Below, piece by piece: positions 3,206-62,458 of a stretch of DNA of 62,541 bases. How positions within the stretch are numbered: the first letter of the stretch is position 1; the number at the start of each line of letters is the position of its first letter. The notes below the pieces were generated by a model that saw only the letters and a program-made list of their open reading frames with translations, was not told where the DNA came from and ran no database searches. Source of the DNA: Nocardioides sp. (GTDB lineage Bacteria; Actinomycetota; Actinomycetes; Propionibacteriales; Nocardioidaceae). A program made the position numbers and the translations under genes. The DNA lies in NCBI GenBank assembly GCA_025965125.1, contig JAOPXM010000066.1, positions 1 to 62,541 of the forward strand. The letters are read 5' to 3'.

Positions 3206-4326
3206 TCAGCGACCGTCGCGGCGAGCACCTTCAGGTGATGGTTGCCGTCGCCGAGCAGGTGGTCGAGCGCGGTGAGGTGGCTGGTGTAGCTGCCGATGCT
3301 GTACTCCGCGGTCATGCCGATGCCGCCGTGCAGCTGGATCGCCTCCTGGCCGACGTGACGCCCTGAGCGGCTGACCTGCAGCGCGGCGCGGGCGGCGCCC
3401 GCGGCCACCTCCTCGGGGGTGCCTGCTGCGACCACCATCGTGGCCCAGGTGACGATGCTCTTGGCCAGCTCGAGCGACACGTACATGTCGGCCGCGCGGA
3501 ACGTCAGCGCCTGGAACGTGTTGAGCGTGACGCCGAACTGCTTGCGGCTCTTGAGGTACGACGTGGTGGCGTCCAGGGAGTACTCCATGGCACCGATCGC
3601 CTCGTTGCACGCCATCACCCGGGCGATGTCCTGCACGGTCGCGATGCTGGACTCCAGATCACGGCCGGCCTCGCCCAACGCAGTGGCGGGGGTGCCGTCG
3701 AAGGCGACCCGGGCCGCCCGGCCGCCGTCGTGGGTTGCGTAACCGGCCCGCGTCAGCCCGCTCGCGTCAGGGGAGACCAGGAACAGGCCCGTCCCGCCGC
3801 CCTCGGGCAGCACGGCGCTGACCACGAGCAGGTCGGCGCGGGCGCCGTGGGGGACCGGCTCCTTGATGCCGGTGAGGGTCCAGTCATCGCCATCCTTCTG
3901 GGCCGTGACAGCGGAGGCCGTGTCGGCCCAGCGGGCGCCGGGCTCCGCATGCGCGAACGCCAGCACGCTCTCGCCGGCGGCGAGCGCGCCGAGCACCTCG
4001 GCGCGCTGCTCGTCGGAGCCGACCGCGGCCACAAGACCGCCGGCCAGCACGACCGAGGTCAGGAACGGCTCCGGTGCCAGCACCCGGCCGAACTCCTGGG
4101 CGACGATGGAGATCTCCACCGGTCCGGCGCCCACACCCCCGTCGGCCTCGGCGAACGGCAGCCCCAGGATGCCCATCTCGGCCAGGCGGGCCCACAGCTT
4201 CTCGTCGAAACCCGGGTCCTCGGCGACCGTGCGGCGGCGCGTCTCGAAGTCGGCGTACGTCTTGCCGACCAGGCCGCGGACCGCGTCGCGCAGGGCGTCC
4301 TGCTCGTCGTCGTAGGTGAAGTCCAT
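3178..4326 (-). CDS. Acyl-CoA dehydrogenase family protein (second of a pair)
   Basis: A 382-residue FAD-dependent acyl-CoA dehydrogenase. The N-terminal helical domain (about 1-110) is followed by a beta domain and a C-terminal four-helix domain with KQFGVTLNTFQALTFRAADM and IQLHGGIGMTAEYSIGSYT, the latter a hallmark of the family. The final 'YxGxNE' catalytic-loop region is absent, replaced by a HLTALDHLLGDG end. It starts one base after the stop of the upstream dehydrogenase. In actinobacteria such adjacent pairs (FadE-like) can form heterotetramers acting on steroid side chains or other bulky acyl-CoAs; that assignment is inference. Confidence 0.88.
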   Translation of the reverse strand: MDFTYDDEQDALRDAVRGLVGKTYADFETRRRTVAEDPGFDEKLWARLAEMGILGLPFAEADGGVGAGPVEISIVAQEFGRVLAPEPFLTSVVLAGGLVAAVGSDEQRAEVLGALAAGESVLAFAHAEPGARWADTASAVTAQKDGDDWTLTGIKEPVPHGARADLLVVSAVLPEGGGTGLFLVSPDASGLTRAGYATHDGGRAARVAFDGTPATALGEAGRDLESSIATVQDIARVMACNEAIGAMEYSLDATTSYLKSRKQFGVTLNTFQALTFRAADMYVSLELAKSIVTWATMVVAAGTPEEVAAGAARAALQVSRSGRHVGQEAIQLHGGIGMTAEYSIGSYTSHLTALDHLLGDGNHHLKVLAATVADYDEVDPLS

Positions 4327-4327
4327 G

Positions 4328-5479
<1,152 letters not shown>

Positions 5480-5692
5480 CGGCGTCTCCTGGGTCGGGGG
5501 CGTGCCCATCATGCCGTCCAGTCCCTGGAAACCCCGAGACAACTGAGGCGCGAGATTGCAGGCTTGCGTCAGGAGCCGGCTCCGGGCTGACTCCCAGCGG
5601 ACTCAAAGCGGAATCCAAGCAACGCTCGAGACGATCGGTTTGCTCGCCACCGCGGCGAGGACGCAGCTCCACCCGACGACGAGGTCACCATC
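5480..5692. other. Intergenic region, no gene seen
   Basis: Region upstream of the dehydrogenase operon. It holds a perfect 12-base palindrome GGAGCCGGCTCC at 5572-5583 that could be an operator. No coding signal was seen. If the 45-codon frame at 5693 is not real, the gene-free stretch runs to 5852. Confidence 0.4.
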
Positions 5693-5830
5693 ATGCGCCA
5701 CCAGATCGAGCACCGCCGCAGGACCTGGCACTCCCTCACGCCCGAACAGAAGCAGGAGCGCCTGCGCGACCTGCGCCGGAACCAGCAGGCCCAGATCGAG
5801 CTCGAGGTACGCCGGCTCCACCACCGCTGA
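5693..5830 (+). CDS. Possible small basic helical protein, 45 aa
   Basis: An open frame from ATG 5693 to TGA 5828-5830, preceded by GAGG about 9 bases upstream. The translation starts MRHQIEHRRRTWHSLTPEQK and is rich in Arg, Gln, Glu and Leu with heptad-like spacing, predicting one long amphipathic helix. Composition resembles small conserved actinobacterial proteins, but it may also be chance. No neighbour suggests a role. Confidence 0.4.
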   Translation: MRHQIEHRRRTWHSLTPEQKQERLRDLRRNQQAQIELEVRRLHHR

Positions 5831-5852
5831 CCCGCCTGTCGGTCCGGGAGCC

Positions 5853-6464
5853 TCAGACCTGGATCTCCACCTCGTCGCCCAGCCGGGCGCCGCGCTCGAG
5901 CTCGAGGTCGTCACCGGACCAGAACGTCCCGGGGTCGTAGTAGTTCGTCGGCCGACGGCCGTCGAGGAGACCCATCTCGGCGTAGGTGCCTGCGACGACC
6001 TCGGCACAGTAGGTGAGCTCAGCGGGCGCGGGTCGACGCAGGCGGCCGCGAGCCCATCGCCCTGCGAGCGCCGCGGTCGCGGGGAACGGCGTCCCGTCCA
6101 GGCGGGCGATCGTGCGCAGCAGGGCCGCCTCCATGTCCGGGGTGATCTCGGCGTCCAGCTGGCGCAGCCAGGCGCGCTGCTCGTAGCGGCCGCACCACGT
6201 GGTCACGGCCGCCCGCAGGTCGTGCAGCTGGACGCCCCGGTGGTGGTTGCCGGTCCACACGTCGAGCAGCCCCTTGCCCAGCTCGGCGTGCCACATCAGC
6301 GGGGGCATGTCGTCCAGCACGACCGCCATCCCGACGTGGTTGACCGGTGCGTTCGTGACCACCCGGATAGCGTGGTCGGCAGCCGTTCGGCCACGAAACA
6401 GCCACAGGTCCCCGGTGCGGGTCAGGTCGACCGCCTCGTCCAGGGACAGCCTGCTGCCCATCAC
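5853..6464 (-). CDS. Permuted papain-fold (YiiX/YebB-like, NlpC/P60 clan) hydrolase
   Basis: A 203-residue protein. N-terminal GDLWLFRG (about 19-26) and NAPVNHVGMAV (about 38-48, candidate catalytic His) are followed by a helical middle and ELTYCAEVVAGTYAEMGLL (candidate catalytic Cys). Order His-then-Cys is the circularly permuted NlpC/P60 arrangement of the YiiX-like family. Members act on peptide or lipid amide bonds. No signal peptide or membrane segment is seen, so it is predicted cytoplasmic. Stands alone, divergent from the small gene at 6497. Confidence 0.75.
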   Translation of the reverse strand: MMGSRLSLDEAVDLTRTGDLWLFRGRTAADHAIRVVTNAPVNHVGMAVVLDDMPPLMWHAELGKGLLDVWTGNHHRGVQLHDLRAAVTTWCGRYEQRAWLRQLDAEITPDMEAALLRTIARLDGTPFPATAALAGRWARGRLRRPAPAELTYCAEVVAGTYAEMGLLDGRRPTNYYDPGTFWSGDDLELERGARLGDEVEIQV

Positions 6465-33946: not shown

Positions 33947-35463
33947 GCGGTTACTTCCTCACGGGTCGGGTTTGCGGTGGTGTCGGGTGCCTGGACGTCG
34001 TAGGCAGCGATGTCGAACTCCGACAGCGACCGACGGAAGTTGAAGGTGGTGCGCGGCCACAGGACCGTGTTCTTGCCGTGCGCGTCGAGATACCAGCTCG
34101 AGCAGCCACCGGTGTTCCAGACGGTCCGCTGCATCCGGCGCTGGAGGCTCGCATTCCACCCCTGCTGCGCCTCGGCGGTGGGCTCCACGGTTTCGTAGCG
34201 GTTGAGCCCCATGGTGCGGATCGCGTCCCGGATGTACTGCACCTGCGACTCGATGATGAAGACCATGCTCGAGTGGCCGAGCCCGGTGTTCGGGCCGACG
34301 ATCATGAACAGGTTGGGGAAGCCGTGGACGGTGGTGCCCTTGTAGGCCGCCATCCCGGCCTCGCGCCAGGTGTCGGCGAGGCTCGCGCCGTTGCGGCCGC
34401 GGACCTTCTCCGCGATCGGGAGCTCGGTCGTGTAGAAGCCGGTGGCGACGACCAGGATGTCGATCGGTCGCTCCACGCCGTCGGCCGTCACGACCGCGTC
34501 GCCGGTGATCTTGGCGATGGGGTCGGTGACCAGGTCGACGTTGTCGGACGCCAGGGCCGGGTAGTAGCTGTTCGAGATCAGGATCCGCTTGCAGCCGATC
34601 TCGAAGGTCGGAGTGACCCTGCGGCGCAGCTCGGGATCGGAGATGCCCCTCTTGAGGTTGGCCAGCGCGAGCTTCTTCGCCGGCAACGCCAGCTTCGGGT
34701 TCACGGTGAAGCCGGGGACGAGGAGCTCCTTGCCCCAGTAGATGCCGGTCCGGTAGGCCTTCTGCAGGGCCGGGAGCCGCCGGAACAGGGCGCGCTCGAC
34801 GCGGGTGTAGGTCCGGTCGTTGCGCGGGACGACGTAGGGCGCGGTCCGCTGGTAGACGTCCACATGGCCGGCAACCTTCTGCAGCTCCGGCACGATCTGG
34901 ATCGACGAGGCGCCGGTGCCGATGACGGCCACCCGCTTGCCGGTCAGATCGATGTCGTGGTTCCACCGGGCGGAGTGGAACAGCTCGCCCCGGAAGTCGC
35001 CGATGCCCTCGATCTCGGGCAGCTTGGGCTCGGAGAGACCGCCGGCGCCGACGATCAGCGTGCGGGCCCGCACGGTGCCACCCGACGTACGGACGACCCA
35101 CTGAGCGGTCTTCTCGTCCCAGGCGGCCTCTTCCGCGGCGGTGTCGAACACGAACCGGTCCAGCACGTTCGAGCGCTCGGCGACCTTCTTGATGTAGGCC
35201 TGGATCTCCGGCTGGGGGGAGTACGACGAGGTCCAGTCGGGGTTGGGTGCGAACGAGAACGAGTAGAGCTGGCTGGGGACGTCGCAGGCAGCACCCGGAT
35301 AGGTGTTGTCGCGCCAGGTGCCCCCGACGTCGGAACCCTTCTCGACCACGAGGAAGTCGGTTTCTCCGTCCTCCTGGAGCTTGATGGCGGCGCACAGTCC
35401 GGCGAAGCCGGCGCCCACGATGAGATGCTGCACCGAGGCAGGAAGGGGCTGGTTGTTGCTCAT
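33943..35463 (-). CDS. Flavin-dependent Baeyer-Villiger-type monooxygenase (EthA-like)
   Basis: A 506-residue FAD/NADPH monooxygenase. FAD motif VGAGFAGLCA (about 16-25), NTYPGAACDVPS, the BVMO fingerprint FRGELFHSARWN (FxGxxxHxxxW, about 154-165) and NADPH motif VIGTGASSIQ follow. Oxygenates ketones or thio compounds; EthA is the mycobacterial homologue type. Divergent from a TetR gene, with an operator-like palindrome between. Promoter candidate on this strand: TTGACA (reverse of 35494-35499) about 17 bases from an AATACC. Confidence 0.9.
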   Translation of the reverse strand: MSNNQPLPASVQHLIVGAGFAGLCAAIKLQEDGETDFLVVEKGSDVGGTWRDNTYPGAACDVPSQLYSFSFAPNPDWTSSYSPQPEIQAYIKKVAERSNVLDRFVFDTAAEEAAWDEKTAQWVVRTSGGTVRARTLIVGAGGLSEPKLPEIEGIGDFRGELFHSARWNHDIDLTGKRVAVIGTGASSIQIVPELQKVAGHVDVYQRTAPYVVPRNDRTYTRVERALFRRLPALQKAYRTGIYWGKELLVPGFTVNPKLALPAKKLALANLKRGISDPELRRRVTPTFEIGCKRILISNSYYPALASDNVDLVTDPIAKITGDAVVTADGVERPIDILVVATGFYTTELPIAEKVRGRNGASLADTWREAGMAAYKGTTVHGFPNLFMIVGPNTGLGHSSMVFIIESQVQYIRDAIRTMGLNRYETVEPTAEAQQGWNASLQRRMQRTVWNTGGCSSWYLDAHGKNTVLWPRTTFNFRRSLSEFDIAAYDVQAPDTTANPTREEVTA

Positions 35464-35482
35464 GCCCTGACGGTATTGGCGT

Positions 35483-35501
35483 TATTGAACAAGTGTCAAT
35501 A
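35483..35501. promoter_or_regulatory. TetR-type operator between BVMO and TetR genes
   Basis: TATTGA ACAAGTG TCAATA: perfect 6-base inverted half-sites with a 7-base spacer. On the reverse strand its edge contains TTGACA, a consensus-like -35 for the monooxygenase. It lies 2 bases before the TetR ATG, so binding would cover both promoters or the TetR start. Confidence 0.6.
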
Positions 35502-35503
35502 GG

Positions 35504-36187
35504 ATGGGCCACGTGACGACAACCACAGGGCGGGGCAATCGCACCCGGGCCCAGCGAAATCGGGCCCAGGGAAATCGGGCCCAGGGAAATCGGGCCCAGC
35601 GAAATCGGCTCAGCCCCGACGAGCGGCGCTCGCAGCTGCTCGACCTGGGTGTGCGGCTGCTCGCCACCCGGTCCCTCGACGAGCTGTCCATCGACCTGCT
35701 CGCCGAGGAGGCCGGCATCTCCCGCGGTCTGCTCTACCACTACTTCGGCAACAAGCACGCCTTCCACGAGGCCGTCGTGCGCCGGGCCGCCGACGACCTG
35801 ATCGCCCAGACGGCTCCGCCGGTGACCGGCGACCCGATCGAGCGCCTGCTGGCGTCCGTGACGGCGTACGTCGACTACGTCATCGCCAACTACGAGGGCT
35901 ACCTGTCCCTGGTGAAGGGCGCCGCCGGGGGCAACGAGGCCATCCGTCAGATCTACGACGACGCCCGGTCCGCCCTCACCGACCGGATCTTCCGTGAGGA
36001 CGCCCAGGGCCAGATCATCGACGACACGCCCGCCGCTCGGCTGCTGATGCGCGGCTGGGGAGCCATGACCGAGGACCTCGTGCTCTCCTGGAAGGTCGAC
36101 CCCGCCGGCGTCACCCGTGAGGAGCTGCTCGCGATGATGGCCCTGTCGCTGCCGGCCCTGGTCTCGATCCTTCCCCAGACGTCGTGA
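35504..36187 (+). CDS. TetR family transcriptional regulator with repeat N-terminus
   Basis: A 227-residue regulator. Residues about 15-34 are four tandem RAQxN units. The HTH (about 57-80) reads IDLLAEEAGISRGLLYHYFG; the rest is the ligand-binding domain. Divergent from the BVMO/SDR operon, in the same layout as ethA/ethR, so it probably represses that operon in response to a ligand. ATG 35504 gives an almost leaderless mRNA; GTG 35513 is an alternative. Confidence 0.9.
   Translation: MGHVTTTTGRGNRTRAQRNRAQGNRAQGNRAQRNRLSPDERRSQLLDLGVRLLATRSLDELSIDLLAEEAGISRGLLYHYFGNKHAFHEAVVRRAADDLIAQTAPPVTGDPIERLLASVTAYVDYVIANYEGYLSLVKGAAGGNEAIRQIYDDARSALTDRIFREDAQGQIIDDTPAARLLMRGWGAMTEDLVLSWKVDPAGVTREELLAMMALSLPALVSILPQTS
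35546..35605 (+). repeat. Four-copy 15-bp tandem repeat in TetR coding sequence
   Basis: Four consecutive copies of CGGGCCCAGNGAAAT (35546, 35561, 35576, 35591). Units 1 and 4 have C, units 2 and 3 have G, at the variable position. Because 15 is a multiple of 3 the frame is preserved, adding or removing RAQxN pentapeptides before the HTH. Confidence 0.95.
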
Positions 36188-52192: not shown

Positions 52193-52263
52193 GGGTTCAC
52201 AGTAGGTCTGGGTGTCTCCAACCGATGTGCGAACACGCCGGGTGACCTGCGAGGCTTGTGACC

Positions 52264-53307
52264 GTGACCACCAGCCCCGACCCGCGCGACGGCGCCTTCC
52301 TCAAGGCCGCCCACGGCGAGCCCGTGCCGCACACGCCGGTGTGGTTCATGCGCCAGGCGGGCCGGTCGCTGCCGGAGTACCTCAAGGTCCGCGAGGGCGT
52401 GGGCATGCTCGAGTCGTGCATGAACCCCGACCTCGTCGTCGAGATCACGCTGCAGCCGGTGCGCCGGTACGGCGTCGACGCCGCGATCTTCTTCTCCGAC
52501 ATCGTGCTGCCCCTGAAGGCCGTGGGAGTCGAGCTCGACATCGTCTCGGGAGTCGGCCCCGTCGTCGCCCGGCCGGTGCGGACCCTCGCGGACGTGGACG
52601 CGATCCCCGACCTCACCCCCGAGCACGTCCCGTTCATCACCGCGGCTGTCCGTGGTCTCGTCACGGAGCTGGGCGCGACACCGCTGATCGGGTTCGCGGG
52701 CGCGCCGTTCACCGTGGCGTCGTACCTCGTCGAGGGCGGGCCGTCCAAGGAGCACGCTAAGACCAAGGCGATGATGTTCGGCGCGCCGGACGTCTGGGAT
52801 GCGCTGATGCGCAAGATCGCCGGCATCTCCGCGGCGTACCTCGAGGTGCAGGTCGAGGCCGGCGCTTCGGCCGTCCAGCTGTTCGACTCCTGGGCCGGCG
52901 CCCTGACGCCGCAGGACTACGAGGCCTTCGTGATGCCGCACTCGGCCCGGGTCCTCGAGCGGGCGGGCGCACTCGGCGTACCCCGCATCCACTTCGGCGT
53001 CGGGACCGCCAACCTGCTGGGCCTGATGGGCGAGGCGGGGGCCGACGTGGTCGGGGTCGACTGGCGTACGCCGCTGGCTTCCGCGATCCCGCTCGTGGGC
53101 GACCGGGTCGTCCAGGGCAACCTCGACCCGACCCTCGTCTTCGCGCCCACCGACCTGATGACGTCCCGGGCGGCCGAGATCATCGAGGCCGGTCGCGCGG
53201 CCAGGGGCCACATCTTCAACCTCGGTCACGGCGTCATCCCCGCCACCGACCCCGACCAGCTGAAACGGCTGACCGAGTTCGTCCAGGGCTACCCAATTTC
53301 TGGATAG
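52264..53307 (+). CDS. hemE: Uroporphyrinogen decarboxylase
   Basis: A 347-residue enzyme. Active-site FMRQAGRSLPEYL, GFAGAPFTVASYLVEGG and HFGVGTANLLGLM are visible. It decarboxylates uroporphyrinogen III to coproporphyrinogen III. GTG 52264 preferred to GTG 52258 because GAGG is 9 rather than 3 bases away. Followed by a long hairpin; the next heme genes are 7.7 kb downstream. Confidence 0.96.
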   Translation: MTTSPDPRDGAFLKAAHGEPVPHTPVWFMRQAGRSLPEYLKVREGVGMLESCMNPDLVVEITLQPVRRYGVDAAIFFSDIVLPLKAVGVELDIVSGVGPVVARPVRTLADVDAIPDLTPEHVPFITAAVRGLVTELGATPLIGFAGAPFTVASYLVEGGPSKEHAKTKAMMFGAPDVWDALMRKIAGISAAYLEVQVEAGASAVQLFDSWAGALTPQDYEAFVMPHSARVLERAGALGVPRIHFGVGTANLLGLMGEAGADVVGVDWRTPLASAIPLVGDRVVQGNLDPTLVFAPTDLMTSRAAEIIEAGRAARGHIFNLGHGVIPATDPDQLKRLTEFVQGYPISG

Positions 53308-54201: not shown

Positions 54202-55236
54202 TCAGGCGGCCGGCTCGACCTCCGGCGTGCGGAGTCGGCGGACGACGGGTCGGCCCCCGAGCCACGCGAACGGCGCGAGGAGGAGCAGGACCACCAGCCA
54301 CGGCAGCGAGATCCCCGCGAACGTGGCGATCCCCACGGCAGCAGCGGTCAGCTGGCGCCAACCCGAGTACAGGCCGGCGGTGAACCCGGTGGTGTCCATC
54401 TGCAAGTGGGTGTGCACGACCGGTGCGACGGCGCCGGCCTTGGTGCGCTCGAGGGTGACCGTGATCGTGGACAGTGAGGTCTGGTCCGTCAGGTAGGCCT
54501 GGCGACGCAGCGTCGAGTTGAGGTTGGCCTGGCGACGGGTGAGCTGGCTCTCGATCCGCACGATGTCGCGGATGGTGCGGGCCCGGTCGAGCAGGGTCTG
54601 GATCCGGGCGATGCTCCGGCGCTCGACGCGGATCCGGACCGAGTTGTCGATCACCTGCGTGGTCACGTCCTCGGAGTTGCTGCTCGACATCTCGAGGTCG
54701 GCCACCTTCTCGAGCGCCCCCATCACGGTGCTGAAGTCCTTGCTCGGGATCCGCAGCACCATCAGCGACGTCTTGATCTCGCCGTCGTTGTTGGTGCGGG
54801 TCTCCTCCTCGGTGATCTGGCCGGCATGGTTGAGGACCACCTTCTGCACCTCGAACCGCGCCTGCTCGACATCGTCGGACTGCAGCGAGACCGCGCCGGT
54901 GGAGATCACCAGCGCGGTGAGGGAGTCGGGCTGTGACGGGGCCGCGGGGGCCCCACCGGTGGCCACCTCGGCCGCGTCGAGGGATGACACGCTGTTGTAG
55001 GCCAAGCTGTCGCCGTTCTGGAGGCCCTCGCCGTTCGCTGCATGGCGCTCGGCCTTGGCGGCGGACGGGGCATCCAGCTTGCTCTGCTCAGACAGCTGGG
55101 CGCTGCCGGGCTGCGTGGAGCCCTGAGGGCTGTTGCCGCCGGACCCGCCCGCGGCACAGGCCGCGACGATCACGGCGACCAGGGCGAGCGAGGAGACGCT
55201 GATGGCAATGCGAGGCGCGCGGGAGAACCGGGTCAT
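54202..55236 (-). CDS. DUF4349 lipoprotein
   Basis: A 344-residue lipoprotein: signal peptide with lipobox VAACA (Cys about 27), Ser/Gly/Ala linker, DUF4349 core (about 110-270) with coiled-coil-like helix (RRSIARIQTLLDRARTIRDI) and C-terminal membrane segment plus basic end (about 300-344). Its ATG overlaps the LysR stop (ATGA), so it is co-translated with the regulator. Confidence 0.85.
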   Translation of the reverse strand: MTRFSRAPRIAISVSSLALVAVIVAACAAGGSGGNSPQGSTQPGSAQLSEQSKLDAPSAAKAERHAANGEGLQNGDSLAYNSVSSLDAAEVATGGAPAAPSQPDSLTALVISTGAVSLQSDDVEQARFEVQKVVLNHAGQITEEETRTNNDGEIKTSLMVLRIPSKDFSTVMGALEKVADLEMSSSNSEDVTTQVIDNSVRIRVERRSIARIQTLLDRARTIRDIVRIESQLTRRQANLNSTLRRQAYLTDQTSLSTITVTLERTKAGAVAPVVHTHLQMDTTGFTAGLYSGWRQLTAAAVGIATFAGISLPWLVVLLLLAPFAWLGGRPVVRRLRTPEVEPAA

Positions 55237-56183
55237 GCCGTCTGGGACGAGGACCTGCCCGTCGGGGTTCCCCCGTCACCCTGCCTCCGGTGCGCCCGCG
55301 CCTGCGCCACCAACGTCGCGAGCAGTCGGCGTACCGGCTGCGGCACGTGGCCGCCGGGCCGCTGCCGGACCACCAAGGTCACGGCCGTGCGGTCTCCGGC
55401 GATGGGTCGGTACGCGATGATCCCGGCCCGCTCCATCGGGTCGCCGATGACGCTGTAGTCGGGCAGGACGGTGAGCCCGAGTCCTTCTGCCACCATCACC
55501 TTGCCGAGCTCGGCGCCGTCGGTCGTGTAGCTGACCGCCGGCATGTCTGCGCCGAAGAGGCGGTGCGCGAAGCGGTGCATGAGGTAGCCCGCGCGCATGG
55601 CCACGAACGGCTCCTGCCGCAGCTGGTCGATGTCCACCTCGTCGTACGCCGTCAGCGGATGCCCGCCGGGGAGTACGACGACGGGTCGGCCGTGCACCAG
55701 CCCGGTGCCGGCCAGCTCGGCGGGCGGGTCATCGCCCTCGAGCACGTTGACCAGGCCGAGGTCGAGGGTCCCCTCGAGCAGTCCCTGGTGGATGTCGGAC
55801 TGCTGGGTGTTGATCACCTCGACGGTGGTCGCCGGGTGCGTCTCACGGAAGTCACGAATCGCGGGGGCGAGGAGCGTCGAGGTGGCCGCGCTGACCGTGC
55901 CGAGGCGGATGACGCGGGTCTGGGCGGCCTGGTCACCGGCGGCGAGACGCAGCCGTTCGACCGCCTCGAGGACCTCGACCATGTTCTGCAGGAGGTCGCG
56001 ACCGCGGCTGCTGATCCGGGCTCCGGACCGGTGCCGGTCGAGGAGGGTGACGCCGAGCTCGCGTTCGAGCTTGCTCACGGCCTCGCTGAGCGCCGGCTGC
56101 GAGATGTGCAGCCTCTCGCTGGCGCGCCGCAGGGAGCCGTGTTGGGTCACGGCCGCGAGGTACTCGAGCTGTTCGATCCGCAC
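55233..56183 (-). CDS. LysR-family transcriptional regulator
   Basis: A 316-residue LTTR. HTH at about 1-60 (RIEQLEYLAAVTQHGSLRRA, SQPALSEAVSKLERELG) and effector-binding domain about 90-300. Divergent from the sulfone operon across 199 bases that contain a T-N11-A palindrome, so it is the likely activator. Its stop overlaps the DUF4349 start. Confidence 0.92.
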   Translation of the reverse strand: MRIEQLEYLAAVTQHGSLRRASERLHISQPALSEAVSKLERELGVTLLDRHRSGARISSRGRDLLQNMVEVLEAVERLRLAAGDQAAQTRVIRLGTVSAATSTLLAPAIRDFRETHPATTVEVINTQQSDIHQGLLEGTLDLGLVNVLEGDDPPAELAGTGLVHGRPVVVLPGGHPLTAYDEVDIDQLRQEPFVAMRAGYLMHRFAHRLFGADMPAVSYTTDGAELGKVMVAEGLGLTVLPDYSVIGDPMERAGIIAYRPIAGDRTAVTLVVRQRPGGHVPQPVRRLLATLVAQARAHRRQGDGGTPTGRSSSQTA

Positions 56184-56207
56184 GGGGGTCCTTGGCGTGC
56201 ACTTAGA

Positions 56208-56222
56208 CTATTAAACCAATAG
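56208..56222. promoter_or_regulatory. LysR-type binding site
   Basis: CTATTAAACCAATAG: perfect CTATT/AATAG inverted repeat with 5-base spacer, matching the T-N11-A rule, in the AT-rich leader 25-39 bases upstream of the LysR start. A further half-site AATAGTC (56332-56338), the inverse of GACTATT at 56206-56212, sits nearer sfnG. Region 56184-56382 is otherwise noncoding. Confidence 0.6.
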
Positions 56223-56382
56223 AGATACAATAATTAAATGGACGACCAGTCAAGCCCGGTGAAAGGCAGAGCCTGTCACCCGATCGCCGGAATCGCCCGC
56301 CGCAAGGTGGGTCCTGCCTTGCACCGCGGCCAATAGTCAAGCAATCTGATCGACATACGCAGTTTTGCACAGAGGAGAGAGC

Positions 56383-57510
56383 ATGAGTGCCGCACCCGCC
56401 CCGAACGCCCCCTTCATCTCGGAGCCGCTCAAGTTCGCCTACTGGGTGCCCAACGTCAGCGGGGGCCTGGTCGTGAGCAAGATCGAGCAGCGAACGGACT
56501 GGGGCTACGAGTACAACAAGAAGCTTGCCCAGCTCGCCGAGAACAACGGCTTCGACTACGCCCTCTCGCAGGTGCGCTACATGGCGTCGTACGGCGCGGC
56601 CTACCAGCACGAGTCGACCAGCTTCAGCCTGGCCCTCATGCTGGCCACCGAGCGCCTCAAGGTGATCGCCGCCGTCCACCCCGGCATGTGGCAGCCCGGG
56701 GTTCTCGCAAAGTTCCTGGCCACCGCCGACCACCTGTCCGGTGGCCGTGCGGCCGTCAACGTCGTCAGCGGCTGGTTCAAGAACGAGTTCGTCCAGATGG
56801 GTGAGCCCTGGCTCGAGCACGGTGAGCGGTACCGCCGCTCCGAGGAGTTCATGCGCTACCTGCGGACCATCTGGACCTCCGAGCATGCCGAGCTCAGCGG
56901 AGACTTCTACCGGCTCCACGACTTCGACCTGAAGCCCAAGCCGATCGCGTCAGAGGGGCGCCCGCACCCGGAGATCTTCCAGGGCGGCAACTCCACCGAC
57001 GCCCGGGCGGTGGCCGGCCGGGTGGCCGACTGGTACTTCTCCAACGGCAACACCCTCGAGGGGATCACCGAGCAGATCCAGGACGTGTCGGCCGTCGCCG
57101 ACGCGCACGACCGCAGGGTCAGGTTCGGCCTGAACGGCTTCATGATCGCCCGCGACAGCGAGAAGGAGGCGAAGGAGACCCTGCGCGAGATCGTTGCCAA
57201 GGCCGACGTGGAGGCCGTCGAGGGCTTTGGCTCCGCGGTCAAGCAGGCCGGTCAGTCGACGGGAGACAAGAAGGGCATGTGGCAGGACTCCTCGTTCGAG
57301 GACCTGGTGCAGTACAACGACGGTTTCCGCACCGGCCTGATCGGCACGCCCGAGCAGGTTGCCGAGCGCATCCTCGCCTACAAGCGGCTCGGGGTGAACC
57401 TGATCCTGCTCGGCTACCTCCACTTCCAGGAGGAGGTCGTGCACTTCGGTCAGCACGTGCTGCCGATCGTGCGCGAGATGGAGGCGGACCTGGCCGCGAA
57501 GGTCGCCTGA
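56383..57510 (+). CDS. sfnG: Dimethylsulfone monooxygenase (SfnG)
   Basis: A 375-residue luciferase-like FMN monooxygenase. Strong match to SfnG: LKFAYWVPNVSGGLVVSKIE, ENNGFDYALSQVRYMASYGA, HLSGGRAAVNVVSGWFKNEF, PWLEHGERYRRSEEFMRYL and NSTDARAVAGRVADWYFSNG. Converts dimethylsulfone to methanesulfinate using reduced FMN. AGAGGAGAGA precedes ATG 56383. First gene of a five-gene run; TGA overlaps next ATG. Confidence 0.94.
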   Translation: MSAAPAPNAPFISEPLKFAYWVPNVSGGLVVSKIEQRTDWGYEYNKKLAQLAENNGFDYALSQVRYMASYGAAYQHESTSFSLALMLATERLKVIAAVHPGMWQPGVLAKFLATADHLSGGRAAVNVVSGWFKNEFVQMGEPWLEHGERYRRSEEFMRYLRTIWTSEHAELSGDFYRLHDFDLKPKPIASEGRPHPEIFQGGNSTDARAVAGRVADWYFSNGNTLEGITEQIQDVSAVADAHDRRVRFGLNGFMIARDSEKEAKETLREIVAKADVEAVEGFGSAVKQAGQSTGDKKGMWQDSSFEDLVQYNDGFRTGLIGTPEQVAERILAYKRLGVNLILLGYLHFQEEVVHFGQHVLPIVREMEADLAAKVA

Positions 57511-58757
57511 TGACGCAGTCCTCGCTGGTTGACGAAGCCGTCCTGCGCCCGTCTCGAAACCCCGATCGGGTCGCGACCCAGGTCCCCGTCCTCGAGGCCG
57601 CTGAGGCCGTGCGGGTCGCGACCACGTTCGCCGAGGCGCTGGCCGCCGGCGCCTCGCGGCGCGACGCCGAACGACTCCTCCCGGCGGAGGAGCTGGCGGA
57701 GCTGTCGAGCTCCGGGCTGCTCGCGGTCACCGTGCCGGCGTCGTACGGCGGAGCCGAGCTGCCTGCGGTGACGCTCGCCGAGATCTTCAGGTTGCTCGCA
57801 TCCGGCGATCCGAGCATCGCGCAGATCCCGCACAGCCACTTCGTCTACGTCAACGCGCTGCGCCACCAGGGCAGCACCACCCAACAGGCGTTCTTCTTCG
57901 GAGAGGTGCTGCGGGGCAAGCGGTTCGGCAACGCCCAGTCCGAGGTCGGGACGAAGAACGTCCGCGACTACCGGACCACACTCACTCCCGCCGGGGCGGG
58001 CTGGGTGCTCAACGGGGAGAAGGGCTACAGCACAGGTGCGCTCTTCGCCGACTGGATCCCGGTCCTGGCGCACCTCGACGTCGACGGCCCGCTGCACGTC
58101 GCCTGGATCGAGCGCACCGCACCCGGCGTCTCGGTCGTCGACGACTGGGACGGCATGGGTCAGCGGACCACCGCCAGCGGCACCGTGCTCCTCGAGCACG
58201 TCGCGGTCGAGGACGCGCGGATCACGCCGTACCACCCGACCTTCGACGGGCCCCAGACGTACGGCGCGTTCGCGCAGCTCCTGCACGCCGCCCTCGACGC
58301 CGGGATCGCCCGGGCCGCGCTCGCTGAGGCGGCCGCGTTCGTCACGACGAAGAGCCGCCCCTATCCGGATGCCGGGGTCGAGCGCGCGGCCGACGACCCG
58401 CTGGTCGTGCACGCGTTCGGCGAGATGGAGCTGCAGGTCAGAGCCGCCGAGGCGCTCCTGGCCGAGGCCGCGCGCGCCGTCGACCGGGCGGATGCGGACC
58501 TGAACGCGGAGTCGGCGGCACTGGCCAGCCTGGCCGTGGCCGCGGCTCGCGCGTCCAGCACCCAGGCGTCGATCGACGTGTCGACACGGCTCTTCGAGGT
58601 CGCCGGGACCCGCTCGGCCCTGAACAGCCTCAACCTCGACCGGCACTGGCGCAACGCCCGGACGCACACCCTGCACGACCCGGCCGGCTGGAAGGTCCAG
58701 CACCTGGGCCGGTACGCCGTCGACGGGACCTTCCCGCCCAACCACGGACAGCTCTGA
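57510..58757 (+). CDS. sfnB: SfnB-family acyl-CoA dehydrogenase-like sulfur acquisition oxidoreductase
   Basis: A 415-residue protein with acyl-CoA dehydrogenase fold: ELSSSGLLAVTVPASYGGAE, FGNAQSEVGTKNVRDYRTTL, VLNGEKGYSTGALFADWIPV and LFEVAGTRSALNSLNLDRHW. The SfnB family is a flavin enzyme found with sulfone/sulfonate genes. Its ATG overlaps the sfnG stop by one base. Residues about 5-18 are encoded by a dispersed CTGGTTGA element. Confidence 0.88.
   Translation: MTQSSLVDEAVLRPSRNPDRVATQVPVLEAAEAVRVATTFAEALAAGASRRDAERLLPAEELAELSSSGLLAVTVPASYGGAELPAVTLAEIFRLLASGDPSIAQIPHSHFVYVNALRHQGSTTQQAFFFGEVLRGKRFGNAQSEVGTKNVRDYRTTLTPAGAGWVLNGEKGYSTGALFADWIPVLAHLDVDGPLHVAWIERTAPGVSVVDDWDGMGQRTTASGTVLLEHVAVEDARITPYHPTFDGPQTYGAFAQLLHAALDAGIARAALAEAAAFVTTKSRPYPDAGVERAADDPLVVHAFGEMELQVRAAEALLAEAARAVDRADADLNAESAALASLAVAAARASSTQASIDVSTRLFEVAGTRSALNSLNLDRHWRNARTHTLHDPAGWKVQHLGRYAVDGTFPPNHGQL
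57523..57562 (+). repeat. Dispersed GGTTGA element inside sfnB start
   Basis: CGCTGGTTGACGAAG (57523-57537) differs in one base from 16778-16792. It continues to GTCTCGAAACCCC, matching the recalled GGTTGAG...TCTCGAAACC element. It provides codons 5-18 of the SfnB-family protein. Confidence 0.5.
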
Positions 58758-58774
58758 GAGAAGGCACAGGACAC

Positions 58775-59959
58775 ATGACGGATCTCGACCAGCTCGATCA
58801 GAAGACCCACCTGAAGTTCCACTGGTTCCTGCCCACCAACGGGGGTGACGGCCGCCAGGTAGTCGGCGGTGGGCACGGCGTGGCCGCGGGGCCCTCTGGC
58901 CGGCCGGCGTCGGTGCCCTACCTCGGTCAGGTGGCCCGGGGTGCCGAGGACATGGGCTTCGAGGCGGCGCTCACACCGGCCGGCGCGTGGTGCGAGGACG
59001 CCTGGCTGTCCACGGCGATGCTGACCCAGGTCTCCGAGCGACTCAAGTTCCTCGTCGCGTTCCGTCCCGGGCTGATCTCGCCGTTCCTGGCCGCGCAGAT
59101 GGCGGGCACTTTCCAGAACCTGTCCGGTGGGCGGCTGCTGCTGAACGTCGTCACCGGCGGCGAGAGCCACGAACAGCGGATGTTCGGCGACTTCCTCGAC
59201 AAGGAGGCCCGCTATCAGCGCTGCGACGAGTTCCTGACGATCGTCCGGGCGCTCTGGGACGGGGAGACCGTCGACTTCGCGGGCAAGCACCTCCAGGTCG
59301 AGAACGCGAGCCTCGGGCAGATCCCCGACCCGGTCCCGGCGATCTACTTCGGCGGCTCGTCGGAGGCTGCCGGGCGGGTGGCCGCCAGGCACGCCGATGT
59401 CTACCTCACCTGGGGTGAGGCCCCGGAGGCGGTCGCCGACAAGGTCGACAGGATCCGCAAGCTGGCCGCCGACGAGGGCCGCGAGATCCGGTTCGGCATC
59501 AGGATGCACACCATCACCCGCGACACGTCCGCCGAGGCGTGGGCCGAGGCCGACCGGTTGATCTCGGGCATCGACCCGACGACGGTGGCCAAGGTCCAGG
59601 CCGGACTGCGCAAGAGCGAGTCCGAGGGGCAGCGCCGGATGCTCGAGCTCAACGGGGGCAGCACCGACGACCTCGAGATCTACCCCAACGTCTGGGCCGG
59701 AGTCGGCCTGGTCCGCGGCGGCGCCGGCACGTCGCTCGTCGGCAGCCACGAGGAGGTTGCCGACCGGATCGCGGAGTACCACTCGGTAGGCATCGACGAG
59801 TTCATCCTGTCCGCCTACCCACACCTCGAGGGCGCCTACTGGTTCGGCGAGGGCGTGCTGCCGATCCTGGCCGAGCGCGGCCTGTGGGAGCACCCCCACC
59901 CGACCGCGGTCTCAGCTCAGGTCCCCTTCGCCGCCGATGGCCGGAGGGCCGCATCATGA
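58775..59959 (+). CDS. ssuD: FMN-dependent alkanesulfonate/methanesulfonate monooxygenase
   Basis: A 394-residue luciferase-like enzyme of the SsuD/MsuD family: KFHWFLPTNGGDGR, GFEAALTPAGAWCEDAW, FRPGLISPFLAAQMAGTFQ, LSGGRLLLNVVTGGESHEQR and FGGSSEAAGRVAARHADVYL. Splits sulfonates to aldehyde and sulfite with reduced FMN. SsuD or MsuD cannot be separated here. Third gene of the operon; stop overlaps the FMN reductase start (ATGA). Confidence 0.9.
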   Translation: MTDLDQLDQKTHLKFHWFLPTNGGDGRQVVGGGHGVAAGPSGRPASVPYLGQVARGAEDMGFEAALTPAGAWCEDAWLSTAMLTQVSERLKFLVAFRPGLISPFLAAQMAGTFQNLSGGRLLLNVVTGGESHEQRMFGDFLDKEARYQRCDEFLTIVRALWDGETVDFAGKHLQVENASLGQIPDPVPAIYFGGSSEAAGRVAARHADVYLTWGEAPEAVADKVDRIRKLAADEGREIRFGIRMHTITRDTSAEAWAEADRLISGIDPTTVAKVQAGLRKSESEGQRRMLELNGGSTDDLEIYPNVWAGVGLVRGGAGTSLVGSHEEVADRIAEYHSVGIDEFILSAYPHLEGAYWFGEGVLPILAERGLWEHPHPTAVSAQVPFAADGRRAAS

Positions 59960-60474
59960 CTGCCGCGCTGCGCGTCGCAGTCGTCGTCGGAAACCCCAAG
60001 CCGCAGTCGCGCACCCTGGCCGCCGCGGTCCTGGTGGCCCGGGAGCTGTCCGGTGCCGAACCTGACCTGGTCGTGGACCTTGCGACGCTCGGGGCGTCGT
60101 TGCTCGACTGGCAGGACCCCCACATTGCCGGCCTGGTCGCCGAGGTTGGCGGGGCCGACCTCGTCGTCGTGGCGTGCCCGACGTACAAAGCGACGTACAC
60201 GGGTCTGCTGAAGCTGTTCCTCGACCGCTTCGCCACCGACGGGATCAGCGGGGTCGCCGTGCCCCTGATGCTCGGCGGGGGACCGGGCCATGCGCTGGCG
60301 CCGGAGCTCACGCTGCGTCCGGTGCTGGTCGAGATCGGCGCCACCGTGCCCGTCCGGGGTCTCTACGTCCTCGATGCCGCCCACGACGACCCCGCCGCGT
60401 ACGCCGACTGGCTCGCGGTCGCTCGGCCCGTCATCTCCACGTTGCTCGCCCGCCGGACTGGAGTCCCCGCATGA
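59956..60474 (+). CDS. NAD(P)H-dependent FMN reductase (SsuE/MsuE type)
   Basis: A 172-residue flavodoxin-fold reductase: VVVGNPKPQSRTLAAAVLVA, ACPTYKATYTGLLKLFLDRF and PLMLGGGPGHALAPELTLRP. Supplies FMNH2 to SsuD and SfnG. Start and stop overlap both neighbours by ATGA, so translation is tightly coupled. Confidence 0.92.
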   Translation: MTAALRVAVVVGNPKPQSRTLAAAVLVARELSGAEPDLVVDLATLGASLLDWQDPHIAGLVAEVGGADLVVVACPTYKATYTGLLKLFLDRFATDGISGVAVPLMLGGGPGHALAPELTLRPVLVEIGATVPVRGLYVLDAAHDDPAAYADWLAVARPVISTLLARRTGVPA

Positions 60475-60980
60475 CCATCACCCGGCTGACCACCAACCAG
60501 GACCTCGACGCTGCGCGCCTCCGCGAGGCCTTCGGCATCTTCCCCAGCGGGGTGGTGGCGGTCGCCGCCGAGGTGGACGACCAGCTGGTCGGGCTGGCCG
60601 CGAGCTCGTTCACCTCGGTGAGCCTCGAGCCCGCGCTGGTGTCGTTCTCGGTGGCCAACACGTCGAAGACCTGGCCGACGTTGCGCCGGGCCGCCCACCT
60701 GGGGCTCACGATCCTCGCCGACCACCACGGGGACGTCTGCCGTCGGCTGGCCGGACCGGTCGACCACCGCTTCGACGACGTGCCGGTCAGTGCCACCGGG
60801 GACGGTGCCGTCACCCTGGACGAGGGACTGGCCCGGTTCGACTGCTCGATCTACCGGGAGGTCGAGGCCGGCGACCACACGATCGTGATTCTTCGGCTGC
60901 ACGCCGTCGAGCACAGCGACACCTCGCTCCCGCTGGTCTTCCACCGCAGCGCGTTCGGCCGACTCGAGGCCAGCGCCTGA
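60471..60980 (+). CDS. Flavin reductase-like (FMN-binding split barrel) protein
   Basis: A 169-residue flavin reductase: REAFGIFPSGVVAVAAEVDD, LAASSFTSVSLEPALVSFSV and NTSKTWPTLRRA match the HpaC-type. Second flavin reductase of the operon, of a different fold from the SsuE-like protein. Coupled by ATGA. A strong hairpin follows. Confidence 0.9.
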   Translation: MTITRLTTNQDLDAARLREAFGIFPSGVVAVAAEVDDQLVGLAASSFTSVSLEPALVSFSVANTSKTWPTLRRAAHLGLTILADHHGDVCRRLAGPVDHRFDDVPVSATGDGAVTLDEGLARFDCSIYREVEAGDHTIVILRLHAVEHSDTSLPLVFHRSAFGRLEASA

Positions 60981-60991
60981 ACCCACCGACT

Positions 60992-61027
60992 CCCGGCCCC
61001 GACGTGTGCACCCGCGTCGGGGCCGGG
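60992..61027 (+). terminator. Terminator after the sulfone operon
   Basis: Perfect 13-base arms (60992-61004, 61015-61027; CCCGGCCCCGACG) with a 10-base loop, then CCTTTCCC. Positioned 12 bases after the flavin reductase stop and 30 bases before the hemY start. Confidence 0.82.
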
Positions 61028-61057
61028 CCTTTCCCGTGGCATGCGTAGCCTGAGCCG

Positions 61058-62458
61058 GTGAGCTCAGGACGTCGCGCGGTCGTGGTCGGAGGCGGCGTCG
61101 CCGGACTCACCGCCGCGCGGGACCTGGCCGCCGGCGGCCACCGCGTCACCCTGCTCGAGGCCTCGACCGAGATCGGCGGCAAGCTGCGGCGCCGCGAGGT
61201 GGCCGGTGTGCGGGTCGACGTCGGTGCGGAGGCGATGCTCAACCGTCGTCCGGAGGGCGTCGAGCTGGCCCGGGCCCTGGGCCTGGACGTCGTGCACCCG
61301 GCGATCGCCTCGTCCCGGATCTGGACTCGCGGCGAGCTGCGTCGGTTGCCGCGCTCCCTCATGGGCGTGCCCCTGGACCTTGATGAGCTGGCCGCCTCCG
61401 GCGTGCTGTCCGACCCCGGGCTCGAGCGGGTGCGCCGCGAGGCCCTGTTGCCGCCCGAGCGGTTGGAAGGCGACATCTCGGTGGGTGAGCTCGTCGACCG
61501 TCGCTTCGGGCCGGAGGTCACCGACCGGCTCGTGGAGCCGCTGCTGGGCGGCGTGTACGCCGGCAACGCCCGGGAGATCTCGGCCCGTGCGGCAATGCCG
61601 CAGCTGGTCGCGTTCGCCGAGCGCGGCTCGCTGCTCGAGCAGGCGGCCGTCATCCCGACGACGTACGACCTGCCGGTCTTCGCCGGGCTCCCCGGAGGCA
61701 TGGGCGGCCTCACCGACGCGGTCGCGGACTCGGCGGACTTCGAGATCCGCACGGGAGTGACCGTGCGCGGGCTGGTGCGCGCCGGCAGGCCGGGCGACGA
61801 GCGCTTCCAGCTCACGCTGGGACCCACCACGCATCCCGAGCTGCTCGACGCGGACCTGGTGGTGCTCGCGACCCCGGCGGCACCCACCGCCCGGCTGCTT
61901 GGCGAGCTCGCGCCGGTGGCGGCCATGGAGCTGGCCGGCATCGAGTCCGCGTCGATGGCCGTCGTGACGTTCGCTATTCGGGCCGTCGACGCCCCAGGGT
62001 TGGTCGCCATCGGCTCGTCCGGCTTCCTGGTGCCCCCCGTCGACGGCCACCGGATCAAGGCCTCGACGTTCTCCTTCGCCAAGTGGGGCTGGGTGCGAGA
62101 AGCCGGCCGGGCAGCCCCGGGCGGCGAGGACCTGCTGTTCCTGCGCACCTCGCTCGGCCGGCACCGCGAGGAGGCCACCCTCCAGGTCGCCGACGAGGAG
62201 CTGGTGGCGATCTCGCTGGCCGACCTCGGCGAGGCCACCGGACTGTCCGCCGTCCCGGTCGACGCACACGTCCAGCGCTGGGGTGGCGGCCTGCCGCAGT
62301 ACGCCGTCGGCCACCTCGACCGCGTGGCCCGCATCCGCGACGCCGTCGCGCTGGTGCCCGGCCTCGCGGTCTGCGGGGCGGCGTACGACGGGGTCGGCAT
62401 CCCCGCGTGCGTCGCCTCCGCCCACCGTGCGGTCGACCAGCTCCTCGGGTCCGCCTGA
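61058..62458 (+). CDS. hemY: Coproporphyrinogen III / protoporphyrinogen oxidase
   Basis: A 466-residue FAD oxidase: VVVGGGVAGLTAARDLAAGG (FAD motif about 8-27), VDVGAEAMLNRRPEGV, PLLGGVYAGNAREISARAAM, LPGGMGGLTDAVA and the C-terminal GAAYDGVGIPACVASA. In actinobacteria this enzyme oxidises coproporphyrinogen III to coproporphyrin III before iron insertion and HemQ. GTG 61058. Twelve bases before hemQ. Confidence 0.92.
   Translation: MSSGRRAVVVGGGVAGLTAARDLAAGGHRVTLLEASTEIGGKLRRREVAGVRVDVGAEAMLNRRPEGVELARALGLDVVHPAIASSRIWTRGELRRLPRSLMGVPLDLDELAASGVLSDPGLERVRREALLPPERLEGDISVGELVDRRFGPEVTDRLVEPLLGGVYAGNAREISARAAMPQLVAFAERGSLLEQAAVIPTTYDLPVFAGLPGGMGGLTDAVADSADFEIRTGVTVRGLVRAGRPGDERFQLTLGPTTHPELLDADLVVLATPAAPTARLLGELAPVAAMELAGIESASMAVVTFAIRAVDAPGLVAIGSSGFLVPPVDGHRIKASTFSFAKWGWVREAGRAAPGGEDLLFLRTSLGRHREEATLQVADEELVAISLADLGEATGLSAVPVDAHVQRWGGGLPQYAVGHLDRVARIRDAVALVPGLAVCGAAYDGVGIPACVASAHRAVDQLLGSA

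Follow-up and report, generated by a model that had tools for sequence, protein, structure and literature searches.

A five-gene operon, sfnG-sfnB-ssuD-ssuE-flvR, lies divergent to a lysR gene in a 62,541-nucleotide stretch of Nocardioides sp. DNA (assembly GCA_025965125.1, contig JAOPXM010000066.1; hereafter the window), and on balance we favour reading it as a sulfur-scavenging unit that takes dimethylsulfone (DMSO2) via methanesulfinate and methanesulfonate to sulfite, under the control of the LysR protein and a conserved 21-bp box. Such a unit would be used under sulfate scarcity. DMSO2 is neutral and may enter without a transporter; SfnG would convert it to methanesulfinate and formaldehyde, SfnB would add one oxygen to methanesulfinate to yield methanesulfonate, and SsuD would split this into formaldehyde and sulfite, the latter passing to cysteine. 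Ready-made sulfonates would feed the last step through an Ssu-type transporter encoded elsewhere, and reduced flavin mononucleotide (FMNH2) would be supplied by an SsuE-like and an HpaC/HsaB-like reductase, of which the latter may serve SfnB above all. For homologues elsewhere, the reactions of SfnG and SsuD/MsuD are established, according to the accessible text of PMC8234197. SfnB, the sole enzyme of its kind found in this genome, stands between the enzymes before and after the missing sulfinate step. More tentatively, we propose that actinomycete SfnB is a sulfinate monooxygenase paired with SsuD and independent of SfnG, and that it is run by a sigma-54-free system of LysR and a 21-bp box common to Nocardioides, Streptomyces and others. 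In other bacteria, excerpts of the respective reports describe induction of sfnB and sfnG in a cysteine-pathway mutant of Acinetobacter baumannii (PMC13344012) and list SfnG among the sulfur acquisition proteins of Rhodococcus on dibenzothiophene (PMC8557817).

The operon and its products

A preliminary description of this DNA had proposed a sulfone/sulfonate desulfurisation operon of five genes with near-touching ends, which our analysis supports. All five are on the plus strand: sfnG (56383-57510) and sfnB (57510-58757) overlap by 1 nt, a 17-nt gap separates sfnB from ssuD (58775-59959), and 4-nt overlaps join ssuD to the ssuE-like gene (59956-60474) and the latter to flvR (60471-60980; a label given here). 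The ATG of sfnG at 56383 is preceded by GGAGAG, a longer alternative TTG start at 56365 being less likely, and the previously given start of the unit, 56184, is intergenic, directly past the divergent lysR gene (55233-56183, minus strand). SfnG, an FMNH2-dependent dimethylsulfone monooxygenase of luciferase-like fold (PF00296), matched TIGR04021 over its full length with 615.7 bits (curated cut-off 382.95), with 8t0u as the closest solved chain (E 2e-148). SfnB, a group D S-monooxygenase of acyl-CoA dehydrogenase fold that we propose to act on sulfinates, likewise passed the curated cut-off of its family, TIGR04022 (522.6 bits; cut-off 430.9). The third product, an alkanesulfonate (methanesulfonate) monooxygenase of SsuD type, matched the solved structures of MsuD (7jv3, E 1e-111) and SsuD (1nqk, E 9e-108). 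The two reductases had been described as unlike each other, and they do fall into different families, with the SsuE/MsuE-like NAD(P)H:FMN reductase matching PF03358 (FMN_red, flavodoxin-like; best NCBIfam SsuE) and the HpaC/HsaB-like FlvR matching PF01613 (flavin reductase domain; best NCBIfam HsaB). Judged from their sequences, the SsuD, SsuE-like and FlvR proteins are clear relatives of these families that score below the curated cut-offs.

The assembly comprises 3.98 Mb in 257 contigs and is 92% complete. It contains one SfnG and one SfnB over the cut-off, the best named relatives of SfnB being from Nocardioides, and, with 5 of 20 candidates scored, one match of SsuD type that reaches E≤1e-100. 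No second SfnB/MsuC/DszC-group enzyme was found in this genome, the next TIGR04022 score being 87.7 bits with 24 of 24 candidates scored, and the suggestion that the operon is a compact place to study SfnB thus holds.

SfnB and the proposed sulfinate step

We examined co-occurrence in a class sample of 394 genomes, this one included, in which the top 4-5 candidates were scored per genome and all counts are among the matches listed; SfnB and SfnG were called present over their curated cut-offs, with matches below these counted as absent, and SsuD at E≤1e-100. SfnB was present in 66 genomes, SfnG in 52 and both in 39 (within 6 kb of each other in 32 of the 39), while 26 genomes (92 minus 66) had only SfnB-like matches below the cut-off. 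SsuD accompanied SfnB in 63 of 66 genomes, compared with 54 of the 315 that had neither SfnB nor SfnG. SsuD was also present in 24 of the 27 genomes with SfnB alone (Fisher p 3e-14 against 54/315), and in at least 17 of the 27 the ssuD and sfnB genes lie no more than 3 kb apart. Genomes with SfnG alone had SsuD in 8 of 13 cases; five of these 13 contained a cut or sub-cut-off SfnB-like match (328-427 bits) and all five had SsuD, compared with three of the other eight. By these counts, SfnB is more tightly tied to SsuD than SfnG is. Within the genus, SsuD was found in 9/9 genomes with SfnB and 4/9 without (p 0.03), in a test that left out two genomes with sub-cut-off SfnB, both of which have SsuD.

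Gene order was mapped by tblastn in 80 named loci with an SfnB relative, the best 80 of 510 confirmed. A full sfnG was missing near sfnB in 26 named loci, of which six with little upstream sequence were dropped and 19 of the 20 taken lay within searchable genomes. No SfnG was found at E≤1e-90 in 17 of these 19 genomes, the two with SfnG being Gordonia, and SsuD was present at the same threshold in 15 of the 17, the exceptions being two Glycomyces. Fragments of an sfnG end remain between lysR and sfnB in four of ten inspected loci (L032, L033, L073 and L087; a fifth, in L063, is doubtful at E 0.001), which indicates that in those loci sfnG decayed while sfnB-ssuD stayed. Taken with the co-occurrence, the simplest reading of these losses has SfnB supplying SsuD with its substrate by oxidising a sulfinate to a sulfonate, and together with the lone SfnB of this genome they make its function testable.

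Further analysis placed SfnB in a tree of group D enzymes (85 rows, with one more row left out; 16 forks are open) that sorted them into SfnB proper, a type related to DszC, MsuC and 8cda, and a further, third type. Here the window SfnB joins the actinomycete SfnB proteins. It retains N141, W213, R283, H386 and H389 at positions that we take to be the DszC pocket residues N129, W205, R282, H388 and H391, their choice and numbering being presumed and the residues themselves checked in the alignment. T175 stands at DszC S163, Q at H92 and S at Y96; 8cda likewise has Q and T at the last two of these positions, and MsuC has Q at H388.

Three other readings of SfnB were weighed, of which the best surviving, although unlikely, places SfnB upstream of SfnG. 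SfnB would then turn dimethylsulfide (DMS) and/or dimethylsulfoxide (DMSO) into DMSO2, as Dms1/Dms2 do in Acinetobacter baylyi ADP1, and the operon would form a DMS/DMSO-to-sulfite route in which methanesulfinate is oxidised by FMNH2 chemistry or a side activity of SfnB. The accessible text of a 2026 report (PMC13352529) describes three group D enzymes of ADP1 (Dms1-3) that oxidise DMS and DMSO, to DMSO2, and a triple mutant with growth nearly abolished on DMSO and a pronounced defect on DMS. The gene numbers of Dms1 and Dms2 are adjacent (ACIAD0427/0428), as are those of genes labelled 'SfnB family' in excerpts of reports on A. baumannii (ABUW_2335/2336; PMC12892962) and Pseudomonas protegens (PFL_0244/0245; PMC12892942), and by this analogy Dms1 and Dms2 may belong to the SfnB family. 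If so, SfnB proteins may be broad S-oxygenases, and the step could be DMSO to DMSO2, methanesulfinate to methanesulfonate, or both. The earlier statement that the role of SfnB is unknown may then be partly outdated, as acyl-CoA-dehydrogenase-fold monooxygenases of Acinetobacter that are perhaps SfnB relatives carry out DMS to DMSO2 (PMC13352529, accessible text). However, for the 27 of 66 genomes with SfnB and no SfnG, 24 of them with SsuD, DMSO2 would be a dead end. An upstream S-oxygenase is also better matched by the extra DszC/MsuC-type genes beside sfnG in extended clusters. Among SfnB genomes, other DszC/MsuC/SfnB-like enzymes occur in 34 of 39 with SfnG and 13 of 27 without (p 9e-4; top 4 candidates scored per genome).

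An improbable second reading has SfnB oxidising some other organosulfur compound (another sulfinate, a larger thioether or a thiophene) and sharing the operon only through sulfur starvation. The two Glycomyces loci that keep sfnB-flvR without SfnG and SsuD would suit it, as would the 312-fold rise of sfnB mRNA on dibenzothiophene in Gordonia alkanivorans 135, for which the authors, in the accessible text, propose sfnB (PMC11852219); that induction may, however, reflect sulfur starvation only, and both the tie between SfnB and SsuD and the direct sfnG/sfnB overlap speak against this reading. The third reading, which makes SfnB a plain acyl-CoA dehydrogenase lacking any S-oxygenase role, is very improbable, since despite its Pfam acyl-CoA dehydrogenase domains it scores 522.6 bits with TIGR04022 against <70 for the listed acyl-CoA dehydrogenase models and carries several of the presumed DszC/MsuC-type pocket residues.

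Several points nonetheless weigh against the pathway that we favour. MsuC, a proven methanesulfinate monooxygenase, is 30-31% identical to the window SfnB and in the tree joins DszC/TdsC (99/92), not SfnB, although its row is long and compositionally odd. According to the accessible text of PMC13352529, loss of MsuC from ADP1 brings no significant growth defect on DMS, DMSO and DMSO2. This indicates another methanesulfinate-oxidising route in that strain, which counts in favour of our reading. The same text has MsuC slow on methanesulfinate and the oxidation able to run through FMNH2 without MsuC. By analogy the methanesulfinate step may need no enzyme, and the relatives of SfnB may be DMS/DMSO oxygenases. 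In two Glycomyces genomes lysR-sfnB-flvR persists although searches for SfnG and SsuD at E≤1e-90 found neither, a pattern that the pathway leaves unexplained. The SfnB-only genomes span five families with 16 of the 27 in one, and the counts are uncorrected for relatedness. Furthermore, three products fall short of curated cut-offs: SsuD with TIGR03565 (432.8 bits against 518.2) and NF001939 (447.1 against 510), the SsuE-like reductase with TIGR03567 (83.8 against 164.05) and TIGR03566 (59.3 against 212.5), and FlvR with HsaB (108.5 against 230) and HpaC (41.6 against 205.95). The TIGR03565 cut-off fits this class poorly, as it was passed in one genome only while 125 of 394 have SsuD-type matches at E≤1e-100, and from its sequence we file the window protein as SsuD-like. 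A sulfur-sparing composition, a possible sign of sulfur starvation, was rejected: cysteine plus methionine content was not significantly low (p 0.24) in sfnG, sfnB and ssuD, three of the five genes taken as mechanical open reading frames (ORFs), compared with 43 other ORFs unchecked as genes.

It is possible, although we would not favour it, that FlvR serves SfnB. Reductases of the PF01613 type serve DszC- and HsaA-type oxygenases, and in two Glycomyces loci sfnB adjoins flvR while neither ssuD nor ssuE was found next to it, which is why the pairing may hold. On the other side, flvR was found in only 18 of the 80 named loci, none of them from Streptomyces, whose sfnB often has an SsuE-like reductase nearby; the Gordonia locus L022 has ssuE and no flvR; and a single MsuE serves both enzyme groups in ADP1, as the accessible text of PMC13352529 has it.

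The LysR regulator and a conserved 21-bp box

The preliminary description had placed a divergent LysR regulator where Pseudomonas uses the sigma-54-dependent SfnR, and our analysis supports this. The regulator carries both HTH_1 (PF00126) and LysR_substrate (PF03466), and no Sigma54_DBD match was found in this 92%-complete genome, while the same search was positive in 4 of 14 control genomes; SfnR control of the Pseudomonas type was thus not found. From the sequence comparisons that follow, the LysR protein probably controls the operon by binding a 21-bp palindromic box, GTGAAAGGCAGAGCCTGTCAC (56259-56279), a candidate operator conserved across actinomycete sfn operons.

The box emerged from a search for shared palindromes in 25 chosen lysR-to-next-gene regions of 58 extracted, with a motif score of 499 compared with 217-224 in six shuffles (120 random starts for the real set and 25 for each shuffle). 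When 92 sequences were scanned (L009-L099 and the window), the box lay at the lysR promoter in 50 of 63 lysR loci, preceded sfnG or sfnB at another place in the cluster in 10 more and was lacking from three (L012, L018 and L019), counts that are partly circular as the matrix was built from the same loci. Of the 29 sequences scored as having no lysR, eight had the box. Seven of these are short loci whose stretch cuts lysR or ends before reaching it, and the eighth is the window, the lysR of which is missing from the table. As an independent check we used a matrix of eight Streptomyces sites, which ranked 56259 first in the whole window at 17.5 bits, the next site reaching 7.2. With this matrix, 13 of 16 Nocardioides loci had their best site upstream of sfnG, sfnB or lysR, the misses being L019 (only 4.0 bits), L020 and L055 (where the site ranks second). 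Once the seven short loci were dropped, 49 of 60 loci with lysR had a box scoring >15 bits and none of the 13 that lack lysR did, a non-independent comparison in that many Streptomyces sites are identical to matrix sites.

Not all observations favour the box as a general operator. It is not of the T-N11-A form, having another spacing. L019, whose LysR is 48% identical, has no clear box and L012 (LysR 60%) a weak one only; in L020 neither LysR nor a clear box was found. The distance from the end of the box to the first operon gene is 103 nt in the window and 56-124 nt in 13 named Nocardioides loci, whereas it is 325-598 nt in nine Streptomyces loci, so this spacing is not general. The repeat structure alone is also not unusual, as 92 such 21-bp repeats with ≥7/8 arm matches occur in the window, and only conservation sets the box apart. 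A pattern search of the window allowing three mismatches returned 3 sites with 3.16 expected; the loose pattern is without power, which the exact site and the matrix have.

A perfect palindrome of the T-N11-A type, CTATTAAACCAATAG, which we take to be the textbook LysR-site form, lies at 56208-56222. This candidate was rejected because it is not conserved in the regions of 57 relatives; its TATT-N5-AATA palindrome was seen in the window only among the 58 regions compared, and palindromes of the 5-5-5 type are frequent, with 149 in the window. A wider box regulon was also rejected. No second exact match exists in this genome, and two mismatches gave five genome sites compared with six for a reversed-pattern control, which makes the four inexact sites meaningless. 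In Streptomyces atriruber (L074), four copies of the box occur in 15 kb (at 3964, 9556, 13148 and 14817), with few long ORFs between 8.7 and 12.4 kb.

A literature search on SfnB, SfnG, LysR and methanesulfinate gave, among the papers listed, no assayed actinomycete SfnB and no description of the 21-bp box; what is new here is a testable SfnB assignment and a candidate operator. The conserved box offers a handle on how actinomycetes may switch on organosulfur use without SfnR, which bears on the soil cycling of dimethylsulfide products.

Conservation, known systems and genomic surroundings

A search for the five-gene order in other actinobacteria, which the preliminary description had recommended, was carried out in 15 named Nocardioides loci uncut near the operon (L009-L014, L016-L020, L024, L025, L041 and L055; the truncated L015 was dropped). 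The full sfnG-sfnB-ssuD-ssuE-flvR order is present in nine; sfnG is absent from three (L011, L017 and L025) and ssuE from three (L014, L041 and L055), while flvR is present in all 15. The reading frames of sfnB, ssuE and hemE are split in L025, which may reflect sequencing errors, and a frameshifted sfnG elsewhere in L025 could be missed. Both hemE and hemY lie near the operon in 14 of the 15 loci, L020 showing hemY only, and the operon is therefore apparently an old resident of the Nocardioides chromosome. Among the 91 related stretches L009-L099, a LysR with 54-78% identity (48% in one more) occurs in 63, and the same LysR adjoins sfn genes in Streptomyces too. Neither the five-gene order nor the LysR arrangement is peculiar to this genome, and the operon is a conserved actinomycete version of a known pathway. 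Many clusters have additional group D genes between lysR and sfnG, whereas the window operon has SfnB proper only. The equally compact operons of Nocardioides flavescens YIM 123512 (L016) and N. mangrovi GBK3QG-3 (L009) likewise show no additional group D gene within the stretch compared. In L014, L019 and L020, sfnG is preceded by two additional group D genes that differ in type, and these clusters are possibly complete DMS-to-sulfite operons.

The operon shares SfnG, an SsuD/MsuD-type enzyme, an FMN reductase and a group D S-monooxygenase with the sfnG and msuEDC/sfn systems of Pseudomonas, and the same chemistry is expected. In Pseudomonas, however, the genes lie in several places, msu is grouped with sfnR and MsuC performs the sulfinate step (PMC8234197, accessible text), with SfnR under sigma-54 control as judged from reference titles, whereas here there is one operon with LysR, SfnB alone, two reductases and no sigma-54 found. 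A Gordonia region, TetR-LLM-sfnG-sfnB-TerD, shares adjacent sfnG and sfnB and a luciferase-like monooxygenase (LLM) gene in an actinomycete, but has a TetR regulator, and the accessible text proposes dibenzothiophene use (PMC9861168); the two Gordonia loci compared here (L021 and L022) have sfnB-ssuD-ssuE without lysR or the box, with sfnG elsewhere in the genome. The Dms1/2/3-MsuD-MsuC-SsuD set of A. baylyi is alike in leading to sulfite by stepwise flavin monooxygenases, but according to the accessible text of PMC13352529 its genes are scattered, one reductase (MsuE) serves all and separate Dms enzymes make DMSO2. The dszABC 4S pathway is likewise an FMN-dependent desulfurisation, with DszC a structural relative of SfnB, but its substrates are aromatic and the desulfinase DszB replaces sulfinate oxidation and SsuD.

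The preliminary description had seen no ABC transporter. This is correct for the operon itself, but on another contig of this genome an ssuA gene over its cut-off is adjoined by ABC ATPase and permease genes whose best NCBIfam matches are SsuB and SsuC, both below cut-off, the permease being incomplete at the stretch end. Sulfonate import is thus probably provided in trans by this predicted Ssu-type transporter.

Behind flvR, the strong hairpin reported earlier was recovered at 60992-61027 (plus strand), where it likely marks the transcript end. Its 15-bp stem has 14 Watson-Crick pairs and one G-U, and the fold of 60975-61045 has a minimum free energy of -41.1 kcal/mol (z -4.88; none of 200 shuffles did as well); it has no U-run and is for that reason absent from the terminator-scan list. 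A sigma-70-like promoter candidate, TAGACT-16-TACAAT, lies at 56204-56231 (plus strand), a consensus match only with one found and 0.1 expected. An Rfam search of 55000-61200 gave no match up to E 1, and a riboswitch or other known RNA in the leader was rejected on this basis.

The sfn operon of the window is flanked by hemE (52258-53307) and a hemY-like gene (61058-62458), and a NYN-LOTUS gene and a DUF4349 gene precede lysR. On contig C188 of the same genome, two matches of identical score lie in opposite orientation, at 4912-5985 (plus strand; L002) and 35040-36113 (minus strand; L003), and may be an inverted duplication or an artefact of assembly. Elsewhere, SfnB-family genes occur as adjacent pairs close to ABC transporter genes on Burkholderia (L110:7569-10032) and Pantoea (L112:8612-12387) plasmids, the Pantoea pair also near an LLM gene, with no gene annotated SfnG in either stretch; such plasmid-borne proteobacterial pairs accompany LLM genes or ABC transporters and gave context but no function. 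Saccharopolyspora rectivirgula has several SsuD-, SfnG- and SfnB-related genes in L039:1-17230, and in Nonomuraea jabiensis (L043:4579-7848) two genes divergent from sfnB have lipoprotein-like first residues and perhaps encode solute-binding proteins.

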